Part shown: piece after piece, positions 5,504-30,807 of the stretch
Layout of the letters: the number at the start of each line of letters is the position of its first letter
Numbering within the stretch: position 1 is the stretch's first letter
Source of the DNA: Betaproteobacteria bacterium
Lineage (GTDB): Bacteria; Pseudomonadota; Gammaproteobacteria; Burkholderiales; SG8-41
Assembly (NCBI GenBank): GCA_016868015.1
Contig: VGIF01000011.1
Location: 1-41,980 of the forward strand
Reading direction: 5' to 3'
Length of the DNA stretch: 41,980 nucleotides
Program-made: the position numbers and the translations under genes
Notes under the pieces: generated by a model
What the model saw: the letters and a program-made list of their open reading frames with translations, nothing else
Databases searched by the model: none
What the model was told of the DNA's origin: nothing

Positions 5504-6522
5504 ATGATGTTTGCAACGGTTAACGCAAGTCGCGGGTTCAAGTTGTGTTTGGGCGCTGTATTTTCGATCAATGCCTGCGCCGCATGGGCGCAAACCGCCG
5601 CGCCGGGGGTACCCGGCGCGGGCCCGGTTTTCCCGGTCAAGCCGGTGCGTTACGTGATCCCGTTTCCCGCGGGCTCCGGCAACGACATCGTCGGGCGCCT
5701 CATTACCGAGCGCTTGACGCGAGCCTGGGGGCAGCAGGTCATCGTCGACAATCGCGCCGGCGCTTCCGGCTCGATAGGCGCGGCGTTCGTGGCGAAGGCG
5801 GCGCCCGACGGCTACACGCTGCTTCACTGCAACATCGCGCCCAACGCGATTTCGCTGTCGATCATCGACAAATTGCCCTATCAGCAAGCGATTTCGCGCC
5901 AATCACGCGCATTGGCGCGCCGCCCAACGTGATCGTGGTGCATCCTTCTACGCCGTTCAAGACCATTATGTCGCTGGTGAATTTCGCCCGCGCCAATCCG
6001 GGCAAATTAAGTTACGCCGCGGGCACGCCGGGCACTTCGCCGCACCTGACGATGGAGCTGCTCAAGCTGAAAATGAAATTCGACATCGTGCATGTTCCCT
6101 ACAAAAACGCCACGCAGGGAACGGGGGATGTCATCGCCGGCCAGCTTCCGATCAACGTCACCAACATTCCGTTTTTGGTTGCGCCGATCAAGGATGGACG
6201 CTTGCGCGCGCTGGCGGTGGCCAGCGCGCAACGCCAGCCCTTGCTGCCGGACGTGCCGACGATGCAGGAGCAGGGCGTGAATGACTTCGAAGTCAACTCT
6301 TGGTATGGCGTGTGCGCGCCGGCCGCGACACCGGTGGCGCTGCTTGACAAGATTCATGCGGATCTTATGGGGGTAATGAAAATTCCCGAGGTCGATAAGC
6401 GGCTGAACGAATTGGGCATGCCGCCGGCGCCGCTTACCCGCGCTGAATTCGACAAATTCATGCGCGGCGAGATCGCGCGTTGGGCGCAGGTGGTGAAGGC
6501 GGCGAATATACCGAAGATGTAG
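5504..6522 (+). pseudogene. Bug/TctC-family solute-binding protein 2, frameshifted
   Basis: The start is the ATGATG after AAAGGAGGTGC, the same arrangement as in the upstream paralogue. Translation runs in frame 2 through the signal peptide (to about CAAWAQ) and the entry strand FPVKPVRYVIPFPAGSGND. At IIDKLPYQQ the frame is lost, and the rest of the protein (DFAPITRIGAPPN to NIPKM) continues in frame 1. Against the paralogue, TATCAGCACAGCGAT reads TATCAGCAAGCGAT here, so one C is missing at about 5886-5887. The span is 1019 bases, one short of a whole number of codons, as expected. Everything after the break is well conserved with no further stops, so the lesion is recent or a consensus error. 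If the frame is intact in the organism this is an ordinary Bug protein of about 339 residues. Confidence 0.88.
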
Positions 6523-6581
6523 TGTGCGCGGGCTGGCTGGCGAGCAGCACTTTTGCAACGAAAACTTTCAGGGGGGACAAG

Positions 6582-7601
6582 ATGCGCGATGTGAGGAGAG
6601 CGGGATATGCTTGGCCGTGCGTGGTGGCGCTGGGTGTTGCATTGGGTTGCGCGCAAGCCGGCGCGCAGAGCGCGCAGAGCACGCAGAGCGCGCCGGCGGC
6701 GGCGTTTCCAGGCAAGCCCGTGCGTTATGTGGTGCCGTTTGGCGCGGGCACTTCGCCCGATCTGGTCGGCCGCTTGCTGGCCGACCGGCTCACCCGGCTG
6801 TGGAACCAGCAGGTGATCGTCGAGAACCGCGTGGGGGCGGCGGGTGTGCTCGGCTCGTCCTTTGTCGCCAAGGCGCCGTCGGACGGTTACACGCTGCTAC
6901 AGTGCAACGTCGGCTCCAATGCCATCGCCGTGTCGCTGCATCAGAAAGTGCCTTACGATCAGTTGCGCGATTTTGCGCCGGTGACGCGCATCGGCGTCAC
7001 CGCGAACATCATCACGGCGCATCCCTCGGTGCCGATGCGCTCGCTCAAGGATTTCGTCGCCTACGCCAAGGCAAACCCCGGCAAATTGAGTTATTCCGCC
7101 GGGTTGGTGGGCGTGTCGCCGCAACTGACCATGGAACTGCTCAAGCTCAGACTGAAGTTCGACGTGGTGCACATCCCCTACAAGGTCGGCTCGCAGGCCA
7201 TTTCCGATACCATCGCCGGGCAAGTGCCGTTTAACGTGTCCAATCTGCCGGCGATCGTGGCCCCGGTGCAATCCGGCCGGCTGCGCGCGCTGGCGGTTAC
7301 CAGTGCGCAGCGCATGCCGCAGTTACCGGATGTGCCGACCGTGCAGGAATCGGGCGTGCCCGATTTCGAGGTCTATACCTGGCAGGGCGTGTGCGCGCCC
7401 GGCGCAACATCCGTGCCGTTGCTCGAAAAACTCAATGCCGATTTCACTACGGTGCTGCGCATGGCCGATATGCGCGAGCGCATGAACGAACTGGTGATGC
7501 CGCCGGCGCCCACCACGCGTGATGGATTCGAGCAATTCATACGCGGTGAAATAAAGCGTTGGGCGCAGGTGATTCAGGAGGCCGGGATACCGAAGCAGTA
7601 G
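6582..7601 (+). CDS. Bug/TctC-family periplasmic solute-binding protein 3
   Basis: 339 residues. I chose the ATG at 6582 after AGGGGGGACAAG. The longer tracked ORF overlaps the end of the previous gene and has no ribosome site. A signal peptide (cleavage near CAQAGAQ, about residue 27) is followed by a short QSAQSTQS linker. Then come the family strand PGKPVRYVVPFGAGTSPD, the loops VENRVGAAGVLGSSF and SDGYTLL, and VPTVQESGVPDFEVYTW near the C-terminus. It is clearly related to the two preceding paralogues but more diverged (it ends AGIPKQ rather than NIPKM). The three genes share one strand with gaps of 110 and 59 bases and are probably co-transcribed. The ligand is unknown; a carboxylate is expected for the family. 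Confidence 0.93.
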   Translation: MRDVRRAGYAWPCVVALGVALGCAQAGAQSAQSTQSAPAAAFPGKPVRYVVPFGAGTSPDLVGRLLADRLTRLWNQQVIVENRVGAAGVLGSSFVAKAPSDGYTLLQCNVGSNAIAVSLHQKVPYDQLRDFAPVTRIGVTANIITAHPSVPMRSLKDFVAYAKANPGKLSYSAGLVGVSPQLTMELLKLRLKFDVVHIPYKVGSQAISDTIAGQVPFNVSNLPAIVAPVQSGRLRALAVTSAQRMPQLPDVPTVQESGVPDFEVYTWQGVCAPGATSVPLLEKLNADFTTVLRMADMRERMNELVMPPAPTTRDGFEQFIRGEIKRWAQVIQEAGIPKQ

Positions 7602-7657
7602 TGGTGCGTGGATTACCACAGCAATATACGCAGACCGCCTTGCACGCAAACCACCGC

Positions 7658-7737
7658 GTCGTTCCCGCGCAGGCGGGAACCCATAACGCCCGTGCCACTG
7701 GCAACACCCTATGGGTTCCCGCCTGCGCGGGAACGAC
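7658..7737. repeat. Long perfect palindrome of the CCCGCGCAGGCGGG type (REP/dRS3-like)
   Basis: Two perfect 27-base inverted arms (7658-7684 and 7711-7737) enclose a 26-base loop. Each arm contains its own hairpin, TTCCCGCGCAGGCGGGAA, so the element is a palindrome of palindromes. This sequence type is dispersed in many beta- and gammaproteobacterial genomes. It lies between convergent genes (Bug 3 and the rhodanese gene) and could also stop transcription from either side. Confidence 0.85.
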
Positions 7738-7750
7738 CCGGTGTTTAATA

Positions 7751-7780
7751 TAAGTATTTGATTTTATTGTATTTTTTATA
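7751..7780 (+). repeat. AT-rich intergenic element, copy B
   Basis: TAAGTATTTGATTTTATTG followed by a T-tract that overlaps the stop codon of the rhodanese gene (7776-7778). It lies between the palindrome at 7658-7737 and the gene end. Confidence 0.8.
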
Positions 7781-9362
7781 AAGGCACACCGATCTTGAAA
7801 CTGGCCTTGTCTTGCGCGTCCAGTTGCGCCATCAAGCCGGTTTCCCACGCCAGATACTGGCGCATCGCTTCGCGATTGCCCAAGTGGCGATCGTGCACGA
7901 AGAACAGGTAGTCGATGCATTCGGCATCGGGCGGCTCGTCGGGCGAGGATTCCAGCGAGTAGCCCGCCTTGGTCCAGGCGGCAAGACCGCCTTCGAGCAG
8001 TTTCACGTCTTTGATGCCGGCTTCATGCAGATCGATCGCGGCGAGTTGCGCGAGCGTTGCGTCGCGGGTGATCAACACCACTTGTTTGGCGCCGGCGGCG
8101 TCCGCGTCGATGCGCGGGCGGATGCTCCATAGGCTGCCCGGCACATGCTGCTTGCGATAATTCATGCTGGGGCCGAGATAAAACGCGCTGCATTGATTGG
8201 CGTCGAGCGCGTGTTTCAAATCCTGCGCGGAAATGGTTGGCAGCGCGGGGCGTGGCGCTTTTTCCGGCACGCGCAGCTTAAGGCCCGCCCGCACGCCGCC
8301 TTCGAGCACATAAACATCGCAGCCCAATTGTTTTAACCACGCCGCCACCACCGGCGCGCGCACGCCTTCATGGTCCAGCAGCACGATCCGCGCGTTGCGC
8401 ACGCCGACCCAGGCGTCGGTCGCCTGCACCAACTGCCCGCCGGGCGCGTGCACGGCGCCGGGCAGTGAACCGGCTTCGAATTCTTCCGGTGTGCGCACAT
8501 CGAGCAGGTAGAGCGAGCGGTTCGCTTCACCCGACCAGGCTTGGACCTGTTGCGCGTTGACGCTTGGCACTTTGAAGCGCGCCATCAGATTTTTCGCGCT
8601 GGCTTGCAGGCCGGGCAGCGCGGCGGCATTGATGTCCTCGGGATACTTGCGGGTGGCGCCGCGCTCCAGTTCCATGTCGGCGAGCACCCAGCCCTGGGTG
8701 CCGTTTTCCAGCGCGTAGACCGGATTTTCGATGCCGAAATTAAGCAGCGTTTGCGCGCCCATGATCGAGCGCGTACGCCCGGCACAATTGACGATGATCT
8801 TGGTCTTGGGGTTTTTGACGATGTCGCGGATGCGCAGCGGCAGCTCCGCGTTGGGGCAGCAAATGCCGCCGGGGATGTTCATCTTGCTGTATTCGCTGTA
8901 GGGGCGGCCATCGACGATGACAAAATCCTCTTGGTCTTTTTTCATTTGCGCCAGTTGCGTGACGGTAACGCGCGGCGTGTCGTAAACGTGTTCGACCATT
9001 TCGCCGAACAATTTGCTCGGCACGTTAACCCCTTTAAAAATCGCGTAACCGGCCTTGGTCCATGCTTCGTTGCCGCCGGCGAGCACCGCAACGTCGCTAT
9101 AGCCGATGGCGTTAAGGCGCTTGGCCGCCTTGTCGGCGACACCGCCGCCGTCTTCGCCGTCGTCGCACAGCACGATGCGCGCCGACTTGCGCGGCACCAG
9201 CGCGCCGATGCCGATTTCGAGTTTGCTGTACGGCAAGGGCGTGGCGAACAGCAAATGCCCTTCGCCGAACTGGCCCTCTTCGCGCACGTCGATGAGTGCG
9301 ATTTCGCCGCCGTCGTGCAGCATGTTCTTGAGTGTTTGCGGCGTTAGCGTGGGTGTCTTCAT
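7776..9362 (-). CDS. Four-domain rhodanese-like sulfurtransferase
   Basis: 528 residues, cytoplasmic. There are four rhodanese units in tandem, each closing with a GG-x-x-A-W/GG-type helix (LAGGNEAW, LENGTQGW, LEGGVRAG, LEGGLAAW). Units run at about 1-110, 130-235, 265-365 and 378-470, followed by a helical tail of about 55 residues. The active-site loop of unit 1 has Cys66 in VLCDDGE, and unit 2 has Cys193 in the classical NCAGRTRS loop. Units 3 and 4 have Asp (LLDHEG, about 330) and Thr (ITRDAT, about 432) where the Cys should be, so they are presumably structural or binding modules. Rhodaneses move sulfane sulfur through a persulfide on the Cys. No sulfur-oxidation genes flank it, so the acceptor cannot be inferred. 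Confidence 0.9.
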   Translation of the reverse strand: MKTPTLTPQTLKNMLHDGGEIALIDVREEGQFGEGHLLFATPLPYSKLEIGIGALVPRKSARIVLCDDGEDGGGVADKAAKRLNAIGYSDVAVLAGGNEAWTKAGYAIFKGVNVPSKLFGEMVEHVYDTPRVTVTQLAQMKKDQEDFVIVDGRPYSEYSKMNIPGGICCPNAELPLRIRDIVKNPKTKIIVNCAGRTRSIMGAQTLLNFGIENPVYALENGTQGWVLADMELERGATRKYPEDINAAALPGLQASAKNLMARFKVPSVNAQQVQAWSGEANRSLYLLDVRTPEEFEAGSLPGAVHAPGGQLVQATDAWVGVRNARIVLLDHEGVRAPVVAAWLKQLGCDVYVLEGGVRAGLKLRVPEKAPRPALPTISAQDLKHALDANQCSAFYLGPSMNYRKQHVPGSLWSIRPRIDADAAGAKQVVLITRDATLAQLAAIDLHEAGIKDVKLLEGGLAAWTKAGYSLESSPDEPPDAECIDYLFFVHDRHLGNREAMRQYLAWETGLMAQLDAQDKASFKIGVPL

Positions 9363-9447
9363 GGGCTCACTCGGTTGATGGTTGTGCGTGGCTTTCGGTT
9401 GATGCGCATTATAGCGGCGTATGCAAAGTTAACCGCGATGCGCCGGC

Positions 9448-10695
9448 TTACAAGTCTAATCGTCCGCCGAGATAGATGTCTTCCAGTTTTGACATCGCCG
9501 CGCCGTACGGGCCGAGGCCGGCGCGATCGTGGATAAACAGCGCTTTGTTCAAATCGCGCGGCTTTTTGTCGGTGAGCGCGTCCTTTAACCAGTCGGCCAC
9601 CAGCGGATCGGCCAGCATGCCGCCGAAATTGCGGCTGGGACGCGGCACGTGGTTTTCGTTTTCAAGCACCCAGATTTCCTTGGGACCGGCCACTTCCTGG
9701 AAATAAGCGAGCCCTTCCTCGAGATGGCACAACGGGTCGTACTCCCCCAGCACCATCAGTGAAAAACATTGCACCTTCCCGCCGTAGCCGTACAAATGCA
9801 TCTGCTCGGCCATTTTGTCGAACGCGGCTTCGTCATGGATGCCCGCCATGTACATGAACACCTGTTTAAAGCGCGGCGAGGCCTCCTCGAAAATCGCCTT
9901 TTTGGTGCCATAGTTCGCTGCCGAGCTGGCGATGGCTTTTACGCGCGGGTCGAGCGCGGCGAGCCGGTTGCTCCAGTACGAGCCCATGGAGATACCCATC
10001 ACGCCGATGCGCGCAGCATCCACTTCGGGCTGCTGCACCAGCCAATCGACGCAGGCGCGCGTGGCGCGCTCGTGATTGTCCGCAGTGACGCGGATTTTGC
10101 GCAAATTGCTCATGCCCTGGCCGGGGCCGTCGACCGCGAGCACGTTCATGGCGCGCTTGACGAACAGATTGTTGCTCGGGTCGGGTACCGCTTCCTTGGT
10201 CTGGTCCATGCCGGGAATCGACAGGATGGTGGGCAGGTTCTTGGCGCCGGGCACTTTGTGCCAGTTGCACTGGATACGCACGCCTTCCCATTCGATTTCC
10301 ACGCGCTCGATTGGATAGGCCGCGGTGCGCATGCAACCGGCGAACGATTCGATCAGCTTGCCGTGCAAATAAATCTTGTCGGGATGGTCGTCGACAAAGA
10401 TCGCGTGCTGCGCAATGCGGTAGTTCTCGCACGCCTTGTAGTAGAGCTCGCACGCGCTTTCGCGATGGCCGGCCGCTTCTGCCGCGCGCGCGATAGCTTC
10501 CTGATGGCGGCCGGCTTTTTCCATCACGCGCGGAATCTGGCGGTAGGTTTTCACCTCTGGCGGGATTTCGCGGTGGTCGTAGGCGAAGTTGTGGGTGCGT
10601 CCGGTGGTTTTCACCATCCAGTCGAGTAGCCACTGTTGGCTGTCGCGGCGGCGCTCGGACTTCAGGCTGCCGGTCTTGTCGGTCGGGGGAATCAT
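9448..10695 (-). CDS. Alpha/beta hydrolase, FrsA / dihydropseudooxynicotine-hydrolase-like
   Basis: 415 residues from the ATG at 10695, which has a good GGAGAGG ribosome site. The tracked 586-aa ORF extends into non-coding DNA. An N-terminal helical segment of about 140 residues precedes the alpha/beta fold. The nucleophile elbow GISMGS places Ser236; LGEYDPLCH offers Asp320 and ENENHVPRP offers His349, giving a full triad. The oxyanion side has ILSIPGMDQ, and VDGPGQGMS follows. The helical N-terminal cap and these motifs match the family that includes FrsA-type esterases and C-C bond hydrolases such as 2,6-dihydropseudooxynicotine hydrolase. The exact substrate is open. It is divergent from an MFS carrier, which may export or import a related compound. 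Confidence 0.85.
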   Translation of the reverse strand: MIPPTDKTGSLKSERRRDSQQWLLDWMVKTTGRTHNFAYDHREIPPEVKTYRQIPRVMEKAGRHQEAIARAAEAAGHRESACELYYKACENYRIAQHAIFVDDHPDKIYLHGKLIESFAGCMRTAAYPIERVEIEWEGVRIQCNWHKVPGAKNLPTILSIPGMDQTKEAVPDPSNNLFVKRAMNVLAVDGPGQGMSNLRKIRVTADNHERATRACVDWLVQQPEVDAARIGVMGISMGSYWSNRLAALDPRVKAIASSAANYGTKKAIFEEASPRFKQVFMYMAGIHDEAAFDKMAEQMHLYGYGGKVQCFSLMVLGEYDPLCHLEEGLAYFQEVAGPKEIWVLENENHVPRPSRNFGGMLADPLVADWLKDALTDKKPRDLNKALFIHDRAGLGPYGAAMSKLEDIYLGGRLDL

Positions 10696-19262: not shown

Positions 19263-20030
19263 TTACCCTGCGCAGTTCGGCAGCGCCACCGCCTGCAACA
19301 CCTCTCCCGTAGCCGCCGTCTGCACGAACGCCGCCACGGCGAGATCTCGCGCCTTCCACGCTGGCGCCACACGGAATGCGTGTTTGATGATGTGACGTTC
19401 GTTTACCGCAAACGGCCCCGCCAATTCGCGCACCACGAAATCGTGTTCCAGCCGCTTGCCTTTGTTTTCGCCGGCGGTGACTTGATTGGCGAGCCGGTTT
19501 TCGTAAAGCGCGACAAACAGCGAAGCGCCGGCGGCTTTGCGATGCAGGGTTACGCGCGCCGAAGCCGTCAACGAGCCGGTGCTGCTGTTTAAAAATAGCC
19601 CTATGTCCGCGCCGGGCTTTTCGCTGTTGCGCGTTGCCACCTCCCGCGCGAAATCATTGCGCACGCCGGCACGGCGATAATCCTTGCCGTCCAGCATCAA
19701 CTGCGGCGTGTAAATTGTGCGGTTGCCGATGCGTGCATTCGCAAAGCGCTGGCGCTCGGTGAAACGCGCTTGCGCGAACGGATCTTTCCAGCCCAGGTAA
19801 TTCCAGTAGTCGACGTGATAGGCCAGCGTCACCACGCGATCGTCGCCAAAGCCGCGCGCGGGCAGCGCGCTCACCCAGCGGTCGGCGGGCGGGCAACTGT
19901 CGCAGCCTTCGGAGGTATAGAGCTCCAGCAACGCGACGCGCTGCGCGCCGCTGTTCGCGCTGCAAGTCGCGGCCAGCGCGTGGCTGGCGCTTAACATCAG
20001 CAAAGTAGCAAAACAGGCGGCAAGTTTCAT
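19263..20030 (-). CDS. Secreted DUF1223 thioredoxin-like protein
   Basis: 255 residues with a Sec signal peptide (MKLAACFATLLML to about ALAAT, residue 22). The mature start carries VALLELYTSEGCDSCPPADRW, the DUF1223 signature in which two Cys sit in a C-x-x-C motif like thioredoxin-fold proteins. TLAYHVDYWNYLGWKDPFA and YTPQLMLDGKDYRR are further family segments. A beta-sandwich-like C-terminal part follows from about residue 145. The biological role of DUF1223 is not established; a periplasmic redox function is an inference from the CxxC. It is a single gene on the minus strand, downstream of Bug 6 and separated from it by a terminator. Confidence 0.9.
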   Translation of the reverse strand: MKLAACFATLLMLSASHALAATCSANSGAQRVALLELYTSEGCDSCPPADRWVSALPARGFGDDRVVTLAYHVDYWNYLGWKDPFAQARFTERQRFANARIGNRTIYTPQLMLDGKDYRRAGVRNDFAREVATRNSEKPGADIGLFLNSSTGSLTASARVTLHRKAAGASLFVALYENRLANQVTAGENKGKRLEHDFVVRELAGPFAVNERHIIKHAFRVAPAWKARDLAVAAFVQTAATGEVLQAVALPNCAG

Positions 20031-20204: not shown

Positions 20205-21194
20205 TCACAGCTTTTCAAACTTGATCGCCTTTACCACCTCGGCGGTTTCTTTCGACTCGGCGCGGATCAGCGCGATCACGTCTTGCGGTTGGTTACCCAC
20301 CGGGGTCAAGCCGTCGCTCAGAATGCGCGATCTGACATCGGGCGCATTGAGCGCTTTGACCAGCACACCGTTTAAGGTGTTGATGATGGTTTTGGGCGTC
20401 GCGACGGGCGCGAGGATGCTGTGCCAGGTCAAGTACTTGAAATTGGGTAAACCCGACTCATGCACCGTGGGTATGTCGGGCAGCGCCGGGTTGCGTTCGA
20501 GCGAGGTCACCGCCAGGCCGCGCAGCTTGCCCGATTTCACATGCGGGATCGCCACCAGCGGGTTCATCATGAACATTTGCACATGGCCGCCGAGCAACTC
20601 GGTCACCGCTTGCCCGGTCCCCTTGTAGGCGATGGCCACGATGTTAATGCCCGCTGCTTTGGCGAAGTTGGCGATGCCCAGCACGTTGCCGGTGCCGGTG
20701 GTGGCGTGGTTGAGCTTGCCCGGGTGCGCTTTGGCGAGCGCGATAAATTCCGCAGCCGTTTTCGCCGCCACCGAGGGGTGCACCACCATCACGTTGCCGC
20801 CGGTGGTCAACTGCGTGATCGGCATGAAATCGCGCTCCGGATCGTAGGGCAGTTTTTTGTAGACGTGCTGATTGATGGTCAGGCCGCTGTTGGCGGCGAG
20901 AATAATCGTGTAGCCGTCAGGCGGTGCCTTGGCGCCGATTTCAAAGCCCACCACGCCGCCCGCGCTGCCGCGGTTGTCGACCACGAACGGCTGCCCCAGC
21001 GCGTCGGCCAGCTTGGAGGCCATCAGACGCGACAGAATATCGCTGGGCCCGCCGGGCACGAACGGCGCCACAAAACGTACCGGGCGAGTGGGGTATTTAT
21101 CGGCGCCTTTTTGCGCCTGCGCGTAGACACTGGAAACAGTGGATACACCCAAAATCAAAACGAGACTTGCAGATAGCTTTGCTGCGTGATGCAT
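20205..21194 (-). CDS. Bug/TctC-family periplasmic solute-binding protein 6
   Basis: 329 residues from the ATG at 21194 behind GGAGGAAGCA; the tracked start four codons earlier overlaps that ribosome site. A signal peptide ends near SSVYAQAQ (about residue 27). Family strands are YPTRPVRFVAPFVPGGPSD, VVDNRGSAGGVVGFEIGAK and PPDGYTII, with LPYDPERDFMPITQL and VAIAYKGTGQA forming the second ligand wall. Canonical periplasmic Bug protein. A terminator follows it. Upstream is a 544-base gene-free gap that holds a MITE and repeat copy F before the divergent dehydrogenase gene. Confidence 0.93.
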   Translation of the reverse strand: MHHAAKLSASLVLILGVSTVSSVYAQAQKGADKYPTRPVRFVAPFVPGGPSDILSRLMASKLADALGQPFVVDNRGSAGGVVGFEIGAKAPPDGYTIILAANSGLTINQHVYKKLPYDPERDFMPITQLTTGGNVMVVHPSVAAKTAAEFIALAKAHPGKLNHATTGTGNVLGIANFAKAAGINIVAIAYKGTGQAVTELLGGHVQMFMMNPLVAIPHVKSGKLRGLAVTSLERNPALPDIPTVHESGLPNFKYLTWHSILAPVATPKTIINTLNGVLVKALNAPDVRSRILSDGLTPVGNQPQDVIALIRAESKETAEVVKAIKFEKL

Positions 21195-21295
21195 TGCTTC
21201 CTCCATCGTTGGTTTGGTTGAATAGCCGAATGCTGTTGTTACGAGTGCTGGTCTTTCTGCGTATAGGCGGGTTGATGCAATTTTTTTTGGGGGGG

Positions 21296-22763: not shown

Positions 22764-25283
22764 GTGAATTCTCGGCATTCGAACTGGCGCTGGCTGGCTG
22801 TTTTGTTGCTGTCGATCGGGATTGGTAACGCCAACGCGCAAAGTGATGCGCTCATCTTGCAGCAACAAGCGATTAAACGCATCGACGCCTTTGTTCTGCA
22901 TTTTCGGCAGACCGGCGATTTCAAGCGCATGAACGAATTCCTGGCGCCCGCGCAGCAAGAGCTGGTGGCGAGCGCGCAAGCGTTTGAGGCGCGTAAGGAC
23001 GTTGCCAACCTGGTGGTGTCGCTCTACCGGCTCGCCGAAGTGCAGCGCTTGCAAGGCCATTGGCAAAACGCGGTTAAGCTCTATCAGCAAACGCTGGCGC
23101 TTGCGCGTAAGGTCAACGATGAGTTGCATCAAGCGCGCGCGCTCGGCCGCATGGCGCTTGCCAAGCGCAATGCACGCGATTCGCAAGGGGCGCTCGAGGA
23201 CGCGACGCGCGCCGTTACCCACGCGCAACGCGCCGGCGATGCCGCGGTGTTGTTCGACGCGCTTAACATCAGGGCGCAGGTGCAAGTCGATCACGGCGAT
23301 ATCGCGGCGGCGAACGAAACTTTGACACGCGCTTTTGATGCAGCCAGGGCCAGCAACAAACCGTAATCGCTGTACTTTTTTTACCTGGATCGAGCGGACA
23401 TCTACGCCAAACTCGCCGAACCCTGCGAAAGCGGGCGCGAGCCGAGCGGCTGCAAGGAGCGTTTCGACCAGATGGAGGCCGATTATCGCCAGGCACGCGA
23501 CATTGCCCAGCGCGAGGGTTGGGCGGGCTTGGCGCGCATGATGGACGACATGATGAAGCGGCTCGCGCTCAGGCGCAAATTGAGTCACTCGATGGCGCAA
23601 GTGCAAGGCGCCGTCAAAAACCTGTTCAACCCGCGCACGGCGCGCGAAGTCTTGGTCAACGAACAATTCGTCGCGCGCGACCAGACCAATGCCGCGCAAT
23701 TGGAAGTCATGTTCCGCCAACTGGTGCAAGAAAACGCGCGGCTGGGTCCCTACGCGGAACTCACCGGTTACCGCATGCACGTGACCGACGCGCACTTGCG
23801 GCAGTTGCGCGGCGATAAAGCGGGCGCGGTGCAGGCGTTTGGCAAGGCGATCGACTTGATCGAGCGCGACCGGCGCGGGCTCGCCGAGGAACGCGCGCGC
23901 GCGGCGTACTTGCGGGACAAGGTGGTGGTGTATGACGGCGCGATCGCGGAACTGCTCGACCAAAAACGCCACGCCGAGGCGTTTGACTTGATGGAGCGCA
24001 GCCGCTCGCGCGCCCTGAGCGCCCTATTGGCCAAAAAAGAGTTGGTGCTGGGCAGCGCGCAAGAGCGCACGGCTTATGGCAAGTCGCTCGAACTGCGCAG
24101 CCGCATCGCGCGGCTGCAAAACGATCACTTCGCGCTGGCGGCGGGCAAAGATGCCAGCCCGCGGCAACTCGCCGGATATTCGACGCAAATCCGGCAACTC
24201 GAAGCCGAGCATGGCAAGCTGCTGTCGCAATTGGAGCAACAATCCCCGAAGCTCAAAGAGCTGGTGGAGTCGCGCCCGGCGCGGCTAAGCGAGCTGCAAA
24301 AAGCGGCGCGCGCCGAAGGTTTTGAAGTGCTGCAATACCTGGTGCGAGACAACGACGTGGTGCTGTGGTACATCGGCGCCGAGCGCGTCGAGGTGCGAGC
24401 GGTGTTTTTGACGCGCGCCGCGCTGGTGGAAAAGGTCGCGGCCTTGCAGGCGAGTCTCGCCAACCCGCAAACGGCGTTTGACGAACGCATCGCGCGTCAA
24501 CTGTATTTGTTTTTGCTCGAACCGGCGCGCGCGTGGCTCACCGGCAAGCGCGTGGTGGTGATCCCGCATGACGTGCTGCATGTGCTGCCGTTTCAAGCCT
24601 TGATCGCGCCCGGCGGCGAGCCGTGGGGCGCAGGCGCGCAAATCACGTACGCACCGAGCGCCACCGTGCTGCTGGGGCTTGCGCCGGCGCGCCAGATCAA
24701 GGACGGCAAAATGCTCGCTATCGCCGATCCGTCGATTCCCGCCGCGCGCGAGGAAGTGCGGGCTATCGGCGCGCTGTATCCGGGTAGCAAGGTCGAGTTC
24801 GGGCGGCTTACCACCGAGGGCGAAGTCAAAGCCTGGGCAAAGGACTACAATCTGCTGCATCTTTCGGTGCACGGAAAATTCGATGCGAGCGAGCCGTTGT
24901 TTTCACATCTGGCGTTCGCAAGGGGCGGGCAAAGTGATCAAGACGACGGCAAACTCACCGCGGCGGAAATTTTTGGTTTGCCGCTCGAGGGCGCGCAGCT
25001 CGTGGTGTTAAGCGCGTGCGAAACCGGCAGGGCCGAGGTTACGCGCGGCGACGAGGTGATGGGGCTCACGCGCGCTTTTCTCTACGCCGGCGCGCAGCGG
25101 CTGATCGTGTCGCAATGGAACGTGTCGTCGGAGTCGACCCGGCTGTGGATGGAGACTTTTTATCGCGAGGCGCAACGCGAGCTGCCGGCCGAGGCCGCGC
25201 GGCGCGCGCTCATCGCGGTCAGATCGAATAAAGCGTTTAGCCACCCTCATTACTGGGCGGCGTTCACCATGGTTGGCCGATGA
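22764..25283 (+). pseudogene. Secreted TPR-CHAT (caspase-like) protein, interrupted by an in-frame TAA
   Basis: GTG start behind GGGAGGCG, then a Sec signal peptide (to about NANAQS, residue 26). TPR-type helical hairpins follow (SLYRLAEVQRLQGHWQNAVK, ALGRMALAKRNARDSQGALE) to codon 200. Codon 201 is TAA (23364-23366), yet the same frame continues without shift (SLYFFYLDRADIYAKLAEP) to 25283, about 839 codons in all. The C-terminal half has more helices, a coiled region near 24100-24300 and a CHAT protease domain. His467 (LHLSVHGKFD) and Cys516 (VLSACETG), numbered from the ATG at 23472, form the dyad. An AAGGAG 12 bases before that ATG could re-initiate translation, giving a CHAT half without a signal peptide. 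The nonsense codon may be real or an error. First gene of a coupled operon. Confidence 0.85.
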
Positions 25284-26215
25284 GCAGCGGCGACGCATTC
25301 AATCAGATCACCGAACGCATCAAGGCGCTGGCCGGCAGTTGGCCGGCGTACACCGCGCTCGCCACGTTTGCGCTGTATGTGCTGGGTTATTTGTCGCTGC
25401 GCTTTCAGGTGAGCGCGCTGGGGGTGATCAGCTCCGATTTCGCCGCGCTCGACGAACGGTATTTGTTCGCGGGCATCGATTTTCTGGTTTATCTGGTGCC
25501 GCAGGCGTCATCGGCGTTTTTGCTGTTGCTGTTGGCGGCGCTGCCGTTGGGCGTGGTGCTGGCGTTGTTTGCGCTGGGCGCCAAACGCAAAGGCACCAGC
25601 CTCGCCGCACGTTTTGTGCGTTGGCGCGAGTGCTTAAGCCCGCGCGCGGCTTTCACATGGGCGGCGCTTGGCGTGGTGGCGAGCGTGTTGCTGGTGCAAA
25701 TGGTGATGCGGCAGTGCTTCGCGTTTCAATCGCTATTGCTGGCGCCGGCGCTGCCGCGTTCGCCGGCGTGGCTGGCGGCGCTGCTCACGAGCGAGGACGG
25801 TGCGTCGCGCGCGCTGTTTTTTATCGGCATACTGCTGGCCACGGTGGCGTGCGCGGCGTGGCTCGCGTGGTTGCGGCCCAAACTTCGCGAATTTGAGTCG
25901 GGCCGCTGGCTGGCCGCAATCTACGCCTCGGTGGTGTTGTTGCAGGTGTTGCTGTGGCCGGCCAACTATGCGCTGCTGGCGGTGGCGGAGCGCTATCCCA
26001 AGGTGGGTGAGCTCAATGGCGAAAAAGCGGGCGACAAAATGCTGGCCGCGGGCGACCAGGCCTGGCTGGTGTGGCGCAGCAAGGAGACGCTCACGCTGTT
26101 TGTGATCAGCGCGGCCGACGGCCAGCGCTCGCTGGTCGCGCTGCCGGCGAAGGACATGAAGTTCGCTATTACCGGTTACGATCGCTTGATCACGAAAGTG
26201 CATGCCCGGCCATGA
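25280..26215 (+). CDS. Polytopic membrane protein of the CHAT operon
   Basis: 311 residues; its ATG overlaps the CHAT stop (ATGA), so the two are translationally coupled. Hydrophobic spans are seen at about residues 22-42, 62-78, 78-102, 124-146, 176-197 and 210-236, so five or six membrane helices. A soluble C-terminal segment of about 75 residues follows, with short beta-like stretches (LTLFVISAADG, LVALPAKDMKFAITGYDRL). The N-terminal 18 residues are polar. I do not recognise a named family. The conserved-looking W-P-A-Y and the RYPKVGELNGEKAGDKM patch are the only notable motifs. Position between a secreted CHAT protein and a secreted partner suggests a membrane anchor, channel or substrate for the protease. 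Confidence 0.85.
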   Translation: MSSGDAFNQITERIKALAGSWPAYTALATFALYVLGYLSLRFQVSALGVISSDFAALDERYLFAGIDFLVYLVPQASSAFLLLLLAALPLGVVLALFALGAKRKGTSLAARFVRWRECLSPRAAFTWAALGVVASVLLVQMVMRQCFAFQSLLLAPALPRSPAWLAALLTSEDGASRALFFIGILLATVACAAWLAWLRPKLREFESGRWLAAIYASVVLLQVLLWPANYALLAVAERYPKVGELNGEKAGDKMLAAGDQAWLVWRSKETLTLFVISAADGQRSLVALPAKDMKFAITGYDRLITKVHARP

Positions 26216-26937
26216 AGACTACGCTTAGGTTAACCGTCATCGGCGCCGTTATCGTGCTCGGCGCCGCGTTGCAGAGTCAGCACGCTCACGCGCAAAGCGT
26301 GTTGAGCCGGCTCTTGAGTAGCTTGGGCATAACCGATGTGCCGGGCCAGGTGCGCTCCGGCGGCGAAACGGCGAGCGGCGACGTCATGCTGTGGGGCGGT
26401 GGCGCCGAGCCCGCCCAGCCGCTCACCACCGCGGGCGGCTACCGCTCGCCGGTATTCGGCCGCAAGGGCGAGGCGCTGGCGTTAAAGGGCGATACCCTGG
26501 TGAGCATTGCGCTCGCCGGCGGCGCGATGCGCGAGCTGCGCGCGCTGCCCGGCGCCATCAAGCTACTCGGCGTCAACAAGGATAATCCCGATGAGCTTTA
26601 TGTTTTGCTCAAACACAACGGTGTGCTCGGGCTGGCGGCCGCCACGCGCGGCGGCAACACCCTGACTGCGCTATCCCTCGATGCCGCCACGCACAAGGAT
26701 CAGGCGCAACTCGCGGCGCTGCAAGACGATGCGCGCGACTACGGCACAACCCGGCTTTTTTTAACAACGCAAAGCAAACGCGGCATCACTGGGCGCAGCG
26801 TCGAGTGGACGGATGTTTTTGTGTCGCGCGGCAATGCCGCAGCGCAGAACGTGAGCCGTTGCGATGGCCGCAACTGCGTGCAGCCGGCGCTGGACTTGGT
26901 GACGGGACAGGTGCTCTACCTGCGCCATGCGCCATAA
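26212..26937 (+). CDS. Secreted protein of unknown function, third gene of the CHAT operon
   Basis: 241 residues from the ATG at 26212, which overlaps the stop of the membrane-protein gene (ATGA again); the tracked start at 26071 is inside that gene. A signal peptide runs to about residue 28 (AHAQS). The mature part is rich in short strands with a loose repeat: SGDVMLWGGGAEP, YRSPVFGRKGEALALKGDTLVSI, KLLGVNKDNPDELYVLLKHNG. This hints at a beta-propeller-like or beta-sandwich fold. A Cys pair CDGRNC near residue 220 could form a disulfide, in keeping with a periplasmic site. I do not recognise the family. Repeat copy H begins at its stop codon. Confidence 0.82.
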   Translation: MKTTLRLTVIGAVIVLGAALQSQHAHAQSVLSRLLSSLGITDVPGQVRSGGETASGDVMLWGGGAEPAQPLTTAGGYRSPVFGRKGEALALKGDTLVSIALAGGAMRELRALPGAIKLLGVNKDNPDELYVLLKHNGVLGLAAATRGGNTLTALSLDAATHKDQAQLAALQDDARDYGTTRLFLTTQSKRGITGRSVEWTDVFVSRGNAAAQNVSRCDGRNCVQPALDLVTGQVLYLRHAP

Positions 26938-26988: not shown

Positions 26989-28605
26989 TCAGCCGGCATA
27001 AGCCACCCCCGCGCCGCCGCGCGGATCGGCGCCGCCGCGCAGACGCCCACCGAGTGTCGAGATCACATGCGCGCGCGACATGATGGGTTCGAAGCTGTGC
27101 GGGCTGTGCACCACCTTGTGCCCCATCGCGCGCAATTCGTTCACCACCGCCAATTGCACCGTGGCTTCGGCGTGGATGCCCTTGCCTTCGCAATGGATGC
27201 GCGGCACGGTGACCGCTTCCACCGGCGACATGCCGAAGTCGATCACATTCAAAATCGCCTGCAGCGTGGCACTGATGATCACGCTGCCGCCCGGCGCGCC
27301 CGCCACCAACACCGGTTTGCCGTCTTTTAACAGCATCGTCGGCACCATGCCGGTGGTGCGCGCCTTGCCCGGCGCCATGGAATTTTTGCGGCCGGGGAAG
27401 GGGTCGAAGAGCTTCATCGAATTGTTGTAATTAAAGCCCAGCCCCGGCGTCACCACGCCGGCGGCGGTGCCCAGCGTGTGCGTGAGCGACACCGCGTTGC
27501 CGTGCTCGTCGAAGGTGCACAAATGCGTGGTGCAGGAGGGCGGCGCCTGTTTTTCGTCACCGAGAAAATCGCCGCGCTTGATGCGCTCGGCCCAGTACGC
27601 CGCGCGCTCTTTCGATATCAGCATGGCGGTGGGCACGTCGGCGAAATGCGGGTCGCCCAGATACTCGTTGCGATCCACATGGGCCGCCGCCATCGCGCGC
27701 GCCACCAGGTCGATGTGCCGCGCCGAGCAGTGCCCAAGACTCGCCAGATCGAAATGCTCCAATATCTGCAGCATGGCGATCAGCGTCGCGCCGCTGCCGG
27801 GCGGCGGGTTGGAACGCACGGTGTAACCGCGGTAGCTGCCTTCCAGCGGCGCGTAGGTTTCGGGTGTGACGTTGGCGATGTCTGCGCGCGTCACATACGA
27901 ACCGTTCGCCGCGAGATCGGCGGCGATTTCGTCGCCGAGCTTGCCGTGGTGAAATTCGCGCCAGCCGCCGCGTGCCAGCCGCTCCAGCGTGCGCGCATAA
28001 TCCGGCAGCCGCATGGTTTCGCCGACTTCGAAAAAACGGCCTTCGGGATGTAGAAACACGCGCGCGCATTCCGCGGTTTTGCGTATGCGCGTCATGCCGT
28101 CGGGGATGCCCGGTTGCCGATAACGCGCCCACACCCCCGCCGAATGCGGCGTGATGACAATGCCTTCGTTAGCTTGCGCAATGGCCGGTGCGAGCAGCTC
28201 GGCCCACGGCAGCGTGCAATGCTGCTCATGAAAAATGCCGAATCCGGCGGGTGTCGCCGGGGTCATGATCGAGGTGTAGCCGATCTCGCTGCGATAGTCG
28301 TCAAACAGGCTGTAGCCGGAAATCTCGGTGCGGCCCTTGCAGTCGTTCGCCCACATGTCCGGGCGCACCTGGCTGCCCGCGCGATTGTAAAAATCGACCA
28401 TGCCGCTGCGACCGTTGCCGCCACCATCATTGGCGCGATAGTAGTGCAGCGTGCCCATGCCGCCGATGCCGCACATAAAAGGGTCGTTGACCATTTGCGA
28501 AAACGCGGTGGCGACCGCGGCATCGAAGGCATTGCCGCCTTTAGCCAGAATGGCCGCGCCCACATCGGCGGCACGCGGTTGCGGACAAACGACGACACCT
28601 TTCAT
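26989..28605 (-). CDS. Gamma-glutamyltranspeptidase-family protein (no signal peptide)
   Basis: 538 residues from the ATG at 28605 (MKGVVVCPQPRAADVG), which follows GGAG; a start 12 codons earlier is possible. The family layout is complete: GGNAFDAAVATAF, GIGGMGTLHYY, PPPGSGATLIAMLQIL and the autocleavage site. Thr360 in CTTHLCTFDEHGNAVSLTHTLG is the expected nucleophile exposed by self-processing into two subunits. GAPGGSVIISATLQAILNV lies in the small subunit. Classical GGT is periplasmic and has a signal peptide; this one has none, so it is probably a cytoplasmic Ntn-hydrolase of the GGT/cephalosporin-acylase type acting on a gamma-glutamyl or other amide. It is upstream of nothing on its strand except the convergent CHAT operon. 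Confidence 0.92.
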   Translation of the reverse strand: MKGVVVCPQPRAADVGAAILAKGGNAFDAAVATAFSQMVNDPFMCGIGGMGTLHYYRANDGGGNGRSGMVDFYNRAGSQVRPDMWANDCKGRTEISGYSLFDDYRSEIGYTSIMTPATPAGFGIFHEQHCTLPWAELLAPAIAQANEGIVITPHSAGVWARYRQPGIPDGMTRIRKTAECARVFLHPEGRFFEVGETMRLPDYARTLERLARGGWREFHHGKLGDEIAADLAANGSYVTRADIANVTPETYAPLEGSYRGYTVRSNPPPGSGATLIAMLQILEHFDLASLGHCSARHIDLVARAMAAAHVDRNEYLGDPHFADVPTAMLISKERAAYWAERIKRGDFLGDEKQAPPSCTTHLCTFDEHGNAVSLTHTLGTAAGVVTPGLGFNYNNSMKLFDPFPGRKNSMAPGKARTTGMVPTMLLKDGKPVLVAGAPGGSVIISATLQAILNVIDFGMSPVEAVTVPRIHCEGKGIHAEATVQLAVVNELRAMGHKVVHSPHSFEPIMSRAHVISTLGGRLRGGADPRGGAGVAYAG

Positions 28606-28698
28606 GGCAGGGGGCTCCTTGTCGGTGGTGTTATACGCCAAGCTGCGGCCCGCCGTGCGCGCGGGCTTGCGGTTTTAACCCGCAATCGCTGATCACGC

Positions 28699-29667
28699 TT
28701 ACTCAGGCATGATGCCGGCGATCTTTACGATTTCGGCCCAGCGCTTGATGTCGTTGGGAAAATTCTTTTGGAATACCGCGGGCGGATCAGCGACGATGTC
28801 ATAGCCGCCGCCGGCGAGATAGTCGCGTACCTTGGGAACTTCCAACGATTTTTTGATCGCGCCGTAAATGCGCTGAACGATGGCATCGGGCGTTTTTGCC
28901 GGCGCAAACCAGGCTTGCCAGCCGGTGTCGATGGCGAAACCCGGCAGCCCGCCCTCGGCGGCGGTGGGCACATCGGGCAGCGCCGCCAGCCGCTTGGTGC
29001 CACTGTAGGCAATGGGGCGCAGCTTTTCCGATTTGAAATGCGGCATGCCAACGATCGGCGGCACCACCGCCATGTGCACCTCGCCGCCGAGCAGCGCGGT
29101 GATCACCGGCCCCGCGCCTTTGTAAGGCACATGGGTCAGCTTGATGCCGGCGCGCGCGTTAAATCCCTCGGCGATCAAATGCAGCACATTGCCCACACCG
29201 GGCGAAGCGAAGGTGAGTTTCTGGCGTTTGGCGAGCGCGATGAATTCCGGGACCGTGCGCACCGGCAGCGACGAATGCACCGTCAACATGGAGCCTTGGC
29301 CGACGATCGGGTTGGTGATCGGCGTAAAGTCGCGCTCGGTATCGTAGGGCAGGTTCTTGCGCAACGCGGGATTGATGACCAGTGCCGCGGATACATACAT
29401 CAACGTATAACCATTGGGCGCGGCCTTGGCGACGATGTCGCTGCCGATCACCGCGTTGGCGCCGCCGCGATTGTCGATCACGATCGGCTGGCCCAGAACG
29501 GGCTCCATCTCGCGCGCGAACACGCGCGCGTTGGCGTCGGTGGCGCCGCCGGGCGGAAACGGCATGATCAGGCGGATCGGGCGGTCGGGAAAATTTGCTT
29601 GCGCAAAGGTGTCGGCGACGGGCGAGAGCGCAAAACATGCAAGTGCCAGGTAACGAAGATTATTCAC
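28699..29667 (-). CDS. Bug/TctC-family periplasmic solute-binding protein 7
   Basis: 322 residues from a GTG start. A short signal peptide ends near VADTFAQ (about residue 23). Mature motifs are FPDRPIRLIMPFPPGGATD, VIDNRGGANAVIGSDIVAKA, PNGYTLMYV, LPYDTERDFTPIT and HVPYKGAGPV, all canonical for Bug. It lies 93 bases upstream of the GGT-like gene on the same strand and 150 bases downstream of Bug 8, from which it is separated by the large inverted repeat at 29715-29807. The ribosome site is poor (GGAAA). The ligand is unknown. Confidence 0.93.
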   Translation of the reverse strand: MNNLRYLALACFALSPVADTFAQANFPDRPIRLIMPFPPGGATDANARVFAREMEPVLGQPIVIDNRGGANAVIGSDIVAKAAPNGYTLMYVSAALVINPALRKNLPYDTERDFTPITNPIVGQGSMLTVHSSLPVRTVPEFIALAKRQKLTFASPGVGNVLHLIAEGFNARAGIKLTHVPYKGAGPVITALLGGEVHMAVVPPIVGMPHFKSEKLRPIAYSGTKRLAALPDVPTAAEGGLPGFAIDTGWQAWFAPAKTPDAIVQRIYGAIKKSLEVPKVRDYLAGGGYDIVADPPAVFQKNFPNDIKRWAEIVKIAGIMPE

Positions 29668-29817: not shown

Positions 29818-30807
29818 TTACTTCACCTCGCGCGGCATGCCCGCATCGATCGCCACCTTGGTCCACTTGGCGATTTCGGCGGGGATGAATTTGCGCATTT
29901 GTTCGGGCGTCATGATCTCGAGCACGGCGCCCATGGCGGTGAGTCTTTTCACGTTGTCCTGGGCGGTGAAGTATTTGACCATTTCGTTGTGTAATTGCAT
30001 GACGATCGGCCGCGGCGTGCCGGCGGGCGCGGCCACCGAGTACCAATTCGAGGCGTCGTAGCCTTTGACGCCGGCTTCATCCACCGTCGGCAAATCGGGC
30101 AGCAGTTCCACGCGCTTTAACGTGCCGACAGCAAGGCCTTTAAGCTTGCCCGACTTCAGATGCGGAATCGCCGGTACGCTCACCGCGAAAGTGGAGTGGG
30201 TTTGGCCGCCGATGGTGTCGATCATCGCCGGAAAGCCACCCTTGTAGACGATGATGTTGAAGTTTTGCCTGGACAGGCTTTTGAATAGCGCCGAGGCAAA
30301 GTGCTGAAACCCGCCGGAGGTCGCGATGGTGATTTCGCCGGGGCGTTTGCCTGCCAGCGCGACGAATTCCGCCACCGAGTTCACCGGCACCGACGGGTGC
30401 ACGCTCAAAATCAAAAAACTCGAGCCGATTTTGCCGATCGGGTCGAACGCGTTAATCGCATCGTAAGGCAGCTTACGCACCACCGCGTTCATGGCGTAGC
30501 CCGAGGACAACACGATCAGGGTGTAACCATCGGGCGGCGACTTGGCGGCGATTTCAGTGCCGATAATGCCGTCGGCGCCGGTGCGATTGTCCACCACCAC
30601 GGGCCGTCCCCAGGTATCGGCAAGGTGGGTGGCCAGCATGCGTCCCAACACATCGTTGGTGCCGCCGGGGGCGAACGGCACGATCATACGCACGGGTTTG
30701 GCGGGGTAGGCGGCTGCCGCGCCTGGCGCGGCGGCTTGTGCTAACGCAACTTGCGGCGTGAATGTCATGGCGACCGCGGCCAGTGAACCTGACAGTTTCG
30801 CGAACAC
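29818..30807 (-). CDS. Bug/TctC-family periplasmic solute-binding protein 8
   Basis: 329 residues. GTG start with a strong AAGGAGGA ribosome site five bases before it. A signal peptide ends near QVALAQA (about residue 24). Mature motifs are YPAKPVRMIVPFAPGGTND, VVDNRTGADGIIGTEIAAKS, PPDGYTLIV and LPYDAINAFDPIGK. A GGFQHFASALFKSL stretch replaces the usual G-S-x-H ligand segment, which may alter specificity. Same strand as Bug 7. Divergent from the PHP phosphatase gene with repeat copy I in the gap. Probably binds a carboxylate; no permease is nearby. Confidence 0.93.
   Translation of the reverse strand: MFAKLSGSLAAVAMTFTPQVALAQAAAPGAAAAYPAKPVRMIVPFAPGGTNDVLGRMLATHLADTWGRPVVVDNRTGADGIIGTEIAAKSPPDGYTLIVLSSGYAMNAVVRKLPYDAINAFDPIGKIGSSFLILSVHPSVPVNSVAEFVALAGKRPGEITIATSGGFQHFASALFKSLSRQNFNIIVYKGGFPAMIDTIGGQTHSTFAVSVPAIPHLKSGKLKGLAVGTLKRVELLPDLPTVDEAGVKGYDASNWYSVAAPAGTPRPIVMQLHNEMVKYFTAQDNVKRLTAMGAVLEIMTPEQMRKFIPAEIAKWTKVAIDAGMPREVK

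Follow-up and report, generated by a model that had tools for sequence, protein, structure and literature searches.

A membrane protein (here mem) and an exported protein (here sec), which constitute two unnamed protein families outside any curated family, are encoded side by side directly downstream of a gene for a caspase-fold protease at all nine loci where mem is found. This trio is real and recurrent and, as far as the search extended, undescribed; its protease is exchangeable, and the pair behind it is not. The type case lies in the window, meaning the whole 41,980-nucleotide stretch of DNA that was analysed, where three same-strand genes at 22764-26937 run in the order TPR-CHAT, mem, sec. 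The preliminary description read these genes as an operon with an ATGA overlap at both junctions (25280-25283 and 26212-26215), and that reading is borne out. Features of the operon are as follows.

22764..25283, plus strand: TPR-CHAT protease gene (~839-840 codons); signal peptide, TPR and CHAT; interrupted in frame
MNSRHSNWRWLAVLLLSIGIGNANA, plus strand: signal peptide of the TPR-CHAT protein
22764-23366, plus strand: upstream listed open reading frame; 200 aa, signal peptide and TPR
23364..23366, plus strand: in-frame TAA (codon 201, from the translation), separating the TPR part from the remainder of the CHAT gene
23472..25283, plus strand: downstream listed open reading frame, same frame; 603 aa, CHAT, without a signal peptide
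24486..25280, plus strand: CHAT domain; motifs HLSVHG and SACETG
25280..25283, plus strand: ATGA shared by the CHAT stop and the mem start (CHAT TGA ends at 25283, mem ATG at 25280)
25280..26215, plus strand: mem, membrane-protein gene; about five TM helices; nine homologous loci
26212..26215, plus strand: ATGA shared by the mem stop and the sec start (mem ends at 26215, sec begins at 26212)
26212..26937, plus strand: sec, exported-protein gene; signal peptide; all-beta model; nine homologous loci

Three genes for TctC/Bug-type periplasmic receptors lie around the operon, at 20205-21206, 28699-29667, 29818-30807 (minus strand), and it is also flanked by a gamma-glutamyltranspeptidase gene (26989-28641) and a DUF1223 gene (19263-20030).

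A constant pair behind a changing protease

The nine mem loci (the window, L003 to L007 and L051 to L053) span the window's order, other Gammaproteobacteria and Acidobacteriota, and amount to about eight independent cases, L051 and L052 being near copies. At every one of them sec lies 3' of mem. The upstream protease carries a CHAT domain at seven (the window, L004, L005, L007, L051, L052 and L053). At L003 (Methylococcaceae) it is instead a 623-aa protein with Sel1 repeats and Peptidase_C14 (9.7e-20; motifs GHG/DSC), and at L006 (Acidobacteriota) it joins TPR to a C14-like stretch that falls short of the cut-off (E 0.0042; SAHGHQD/DACRE). With a C14-like caspase domain at two loci, the label "CHAT" is too narrow for the system. 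Clan CD includes both C14 and CHAT peptidases, and either repeat type, TPR or Sel1, builds an alpha-solenoid; since one or the other repeat is present in each protease scanned, the loci share a format of alpha-solenoid plus caspase fold. Export signals are predicted on most of the trio proteases, with the call made by eye or unsure at L003 (lipoprotein-like N-terminus), L006 (start codon) and L053 (contig edge). The L053 CHAT frame (54-2816), near that edge, has an extra N-terminal part of ~100 aa 5' of its TPR region.

Gene spacing is tight throughout, with gaps of at most 9 bases or an overlap at the junctions measured (31 bases of overlap at L006). At L006, mem and sec form a single open frame of 499 aa (7953-9452), a gene fusion linking the pair. 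Flanking genes differ among the loci. Recurrence in distant taxa amid different flanks was the check proposed in the preliminary description, and the outcome is positive: the trio appears in different surroundings in other families, in other classes and in one further phylum, which argues against chance. A lone CHAT gene with mem and sec as accidental neighbours was rejected on the same nine loci. The mem and sec trees give no resolution of the order in which proteases were exchanged.

The preliminary description also took solitary CHAT proteins, or a pair without CHAT neighbours, as grounds for doubting the association. CHAT genes are indeed mostly found without the pair: CHAT occurs in 24 of 60 genomes of relatives, and neither mem nor sec was seen near the other CHAT loci fetched, within flanks of ~1.5 kb. 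At every locus found, however, the pair is accompanied by a caspase-fold protease. In a tree of 30 CHAT domains, the six from trios that were tested group together as a single clade (support 100/99); L004 was not included, on account of its frame shifts. Three CHAT matches lie within ~9 kb on contig 31 of G089, a genome of the window's order (L016 and L040).

A rare and scattered unit

Both mem and sec are very rare. Only two of 399 genomes of the window's order contain mem, the window's own and one from another family (G096), with none among 13 congeners searched; a sec profile run over 240 genomes of the order returned the same two. A six-member mem profile added one genome among 369 of the class (G488, source of L004), and no further member among the orders to which L003 and L005 belong or among 247 genomes of L006's phylum. 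Within L006's order, mem occurs in 4 of 220 genomes. A scan for two short exact motifs across 84,980 species genomes found L003 to L006. No mem relative was detected in plasmids or viral contigs, and phage or plasmid carriage was rejected on that ground.

The interrupted protease gene of the window

Family membership of the first gene is clear. Pfam finds TPR_12 (2e-11) and CHAT (4.9e-61), the latter at 207 bits for a curated cut-off of 24 (PF12770). GGGAGG precedes the GTG start at 22764, the frame aligns end to end with intact relatives of 839-840 aa, and the CHAT His (HG) and Cys (SACETG) motifs are kept in the window and five relatives.

The same frame is broken by the TAA at 23364-23366, so that, as assembled, the window genome does not hold an intact CHAT reading frame; this bears on function in that genome and leaves the family assignment of the domain untouched. 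The secreted TPR-CHAT protein of the preliminary description thus stands as to signal peptide, TPR and CHAT in one frame, but the stop was missed, and the piece carrying CHAT has no signal of its own. Five relatives (L005, L007, L051, L052 and L053) have a sense codon at the TAA column of the alignment, and the L007 gene matches the window at 80/198 positions before the TAA, 44/133 just after it and 246/501 further on. Uninterrupted relatives and homology that runs on both sides point to a lesion that is recent, or else to a mistake in assembly. The genome, with no second CHAT found in it, is a draft in 366 contigs, and its module is either decaying or affected by such a mistake; for recoding of the TAA no support was seen. 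Likewise, the L004 homologue (USCg_Taylor; 5549-7983) is spread over three frames, with shifts near 6546 and 7678, either through decay or through assembly error, bringing the damaged CHAT genes to two of seven. The mem ATG has no obvious Shine-Dalgarno sequence 5' of it; a real TAA could therefore also lower translation of mem and sec through lost coupling.

Two unnamed partners

The view that mem and sec match no family has held against curated collections: Pfam and NCBIfam searches gave only sub-cut-off matches scattered over single members (DUF3087 0.0074, PRK11465 0.012), and the CHAT, mem and sec sequences gave nothing convincing when searched against the PDB.

For mem, the five or six helices and soluble tail first proposed can be narrowed, on hydropathy, to about five helices as the best reading, followed by a beta-rich C-terminal tail. 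Lysine and arginine are concentrated in loops 2-3 and 4-5 (5.0 and 3.4 per 20 aa) relative to loops 1-2 and 3-4 (1.2 and 1.7), a positive-inside pattern that predicts an N-in/C-out topology. The L006 fusion, in which sec is joined to the C-terminus of mem, would likewise put the tail outside. Most invariant residues are in the N-terminal half, where TM1-loop1-TM2 is the best-conserved part; a conserved region of mem reads LYxxGYLxLRF...DE[RK]YLFAG. The structural model is poor (pLDDT 66.8), with that half badly modelled and the tail predicted as a five-stranded domain; as a query, this poor model found no fold match below E 0.18.

The sec signal peptide ends in HAHA and leaves a mature part of ~215 aa, and a signal-peptide-like start is seen in all eight separate sec proteins (alignment read by eye). 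Its AF2 model is all-beta (pLDDT 82). All 15 Foldseek matches below E 0.001 are TolB, as local matches with TM-scores of ~0.3, and for that reason sec is named TolB/PD40-like rather than TolB. PD40 itself (PF07676) matches two of nine members, at best with E 0.094, which does not reach the curated cut-off. At the C-terminal end, all nine keep two paired cysteines (CDGRNC in the window, CPITC in L003) with QPxL after them. The third gene of the preliminary description, a secreted protein of no known family, accordingly keeps its signal peptide and CDGRNC, while the modelled fold makes it a candidate TolB/PD40-like beta-propeller.

What the trio might do

The composition and structure of the operon, the mem-sec fusion, the exchange of protease, the export signals on sec and most proteases, and the predicted topology are all read from sequence; on top of these we infer a complex, with its sensing, activation, targets and outcome, along the following lines. 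Inner-membrane mem, with its C-terminal tail and the conserved outer loop 1 in the periplasm, would form one sensor or docking complex with periplasmic sec. The first gene would supply an exported clan CD protease whose TPR or Sel1 solenoid serves for docking; once the propeller, or mem, detects a signal, the docked protease may be switched on and would cut envelope or periplasmic targets, or mem and sec themselves. In short, the trio would be an extracytoplasmic module in which a sensor or docking pair governs an exported caspase-fold protease that bears a solenoid and can be exchanged, a proposal to which we give an even chance. A bolder version, distinctly tentative, makes it an "inflammasome-like" module, in which the two new families, sometimes fused, monitor the condition of the envelope and, by recruiting CHAT or C14, set off periplasmic proteolysis and, possibly, regulated death. 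The stress or conflict role raised in the preliminary description is likewise conjectural.

It is unlikely, though worth weighing, that mem is instead both effector and substrate, cut by the protease in its outer loop or tail to yield a pore or other membrane change in the manner of gasdermins, with sec as its guard. The mem gene always adjoins the protease gene, conservation peaks around the first loop, and bacterial gasdermins are described alongside caspase-like proteases (PMC9079055). Against it, a five-helix mem is unlike gasdermins, matching nothing in the PDB and no curated family above cut-off, and no common cleavage site was identified.

Propellers are common binding scaffolds, and a 5' protease tightly followed by its 3' partner recalls the order of many toxin-inhibitor pairs; both suit sec, with mem, as an inhibitor or immunity partner silencing an exported protease harmful to its own cell. 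We consider this improbable: the same partners serve CHAT and C14, something that an inhibitor of the active site would find harder to do, and an exchangeable protease beside a conserved control unit and a conserved solenoid/caspase-fold format favours docking or regulation over an inhibitor fitted to one active site. That mem and sec stay open next to damaged CHAT genes is neutral here, as toxin-first loss is also expected of an inhibitor pair. Housekeeping envelope maturation by a dedicated sheddase or processing protease on a membrane platform, with no role in death or conflict, would suit the absence of defence genes from the flanks scanned (DUF1223, TctC receptors, gamma-glutamyltranspeptidase) and of PADLOC matches to mem and sec, but is equally hard to credit in view of a distribution as sporadic as two genomes in 399.

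Comparison with known systems

To our knowledge, bacterial CHAT or caspase modules with a worked-out mechanism, such as Craspase, act in the cytoplasm. An unnamed pair that stays with exported caspase-fold proteases through a change of protease family suggests common control outside that compartment. PADLOC, whose models match neither mem nor sec, gave a weak BovA match to the CHAT part (0.00021) and a match of the L003 protease to its caspase model (4.3e-14). No published description of the trio was found in the literature searched, a scope outside which most subscription papers lie.

Among periplasmic beta-propellers, the TolB/PD40 proteins resemble sec in being its best match, in export and in a PD40-like end motif; sec differs in its smaller size (~215 aa mature), its TM-score of ~0.3 and its weak PD40 match. 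The Sel1 and Peptidase_C14 protease of L003 resembles the prokaryotic metacaspases (orthocaspases) of a survey that finds WD40, TPR and Sel1 most often as partner domains and counts 70 operons of unknown function out of 217; its operon section has no such membrane and propeller pair (PMC3501461). Craspase TPR-CHAT (Csx29 of type III-E CRISPR) shares only the TPR plus CHAT architecture. Csx29 works with gRAMP/Cas7-11 (PMC9729208), whereas the window protein is predicted to be exported, has unrelated operon partners and scores 37.8 bits against NF041237 (NCBIfam), where the cut-off is 300.

The nearest published parallel, though not the same system, is the two-gene EACC1-caspase system, in which a membrane protein, the proposed sensor, accompanies a caspase (PMC7159879). 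Both are small conserved units in which a peptidase of the caspase superfamily is paired with a membrane protein as proposed sensor. EACC1, with a single TM helix, is encoded 5' of the caspase gene, effectors are fused behind the caspase, and an exported propeller is not described (PMC7159879). The trio lacks that arrangement: its membrane partner, mem, has about five helices and is encoded 3' of the exported protease, and a propeller-like secreted protein comes as a third component. The trio offers a small, defined operon in which protease control outside the cytoplasm can be tested.
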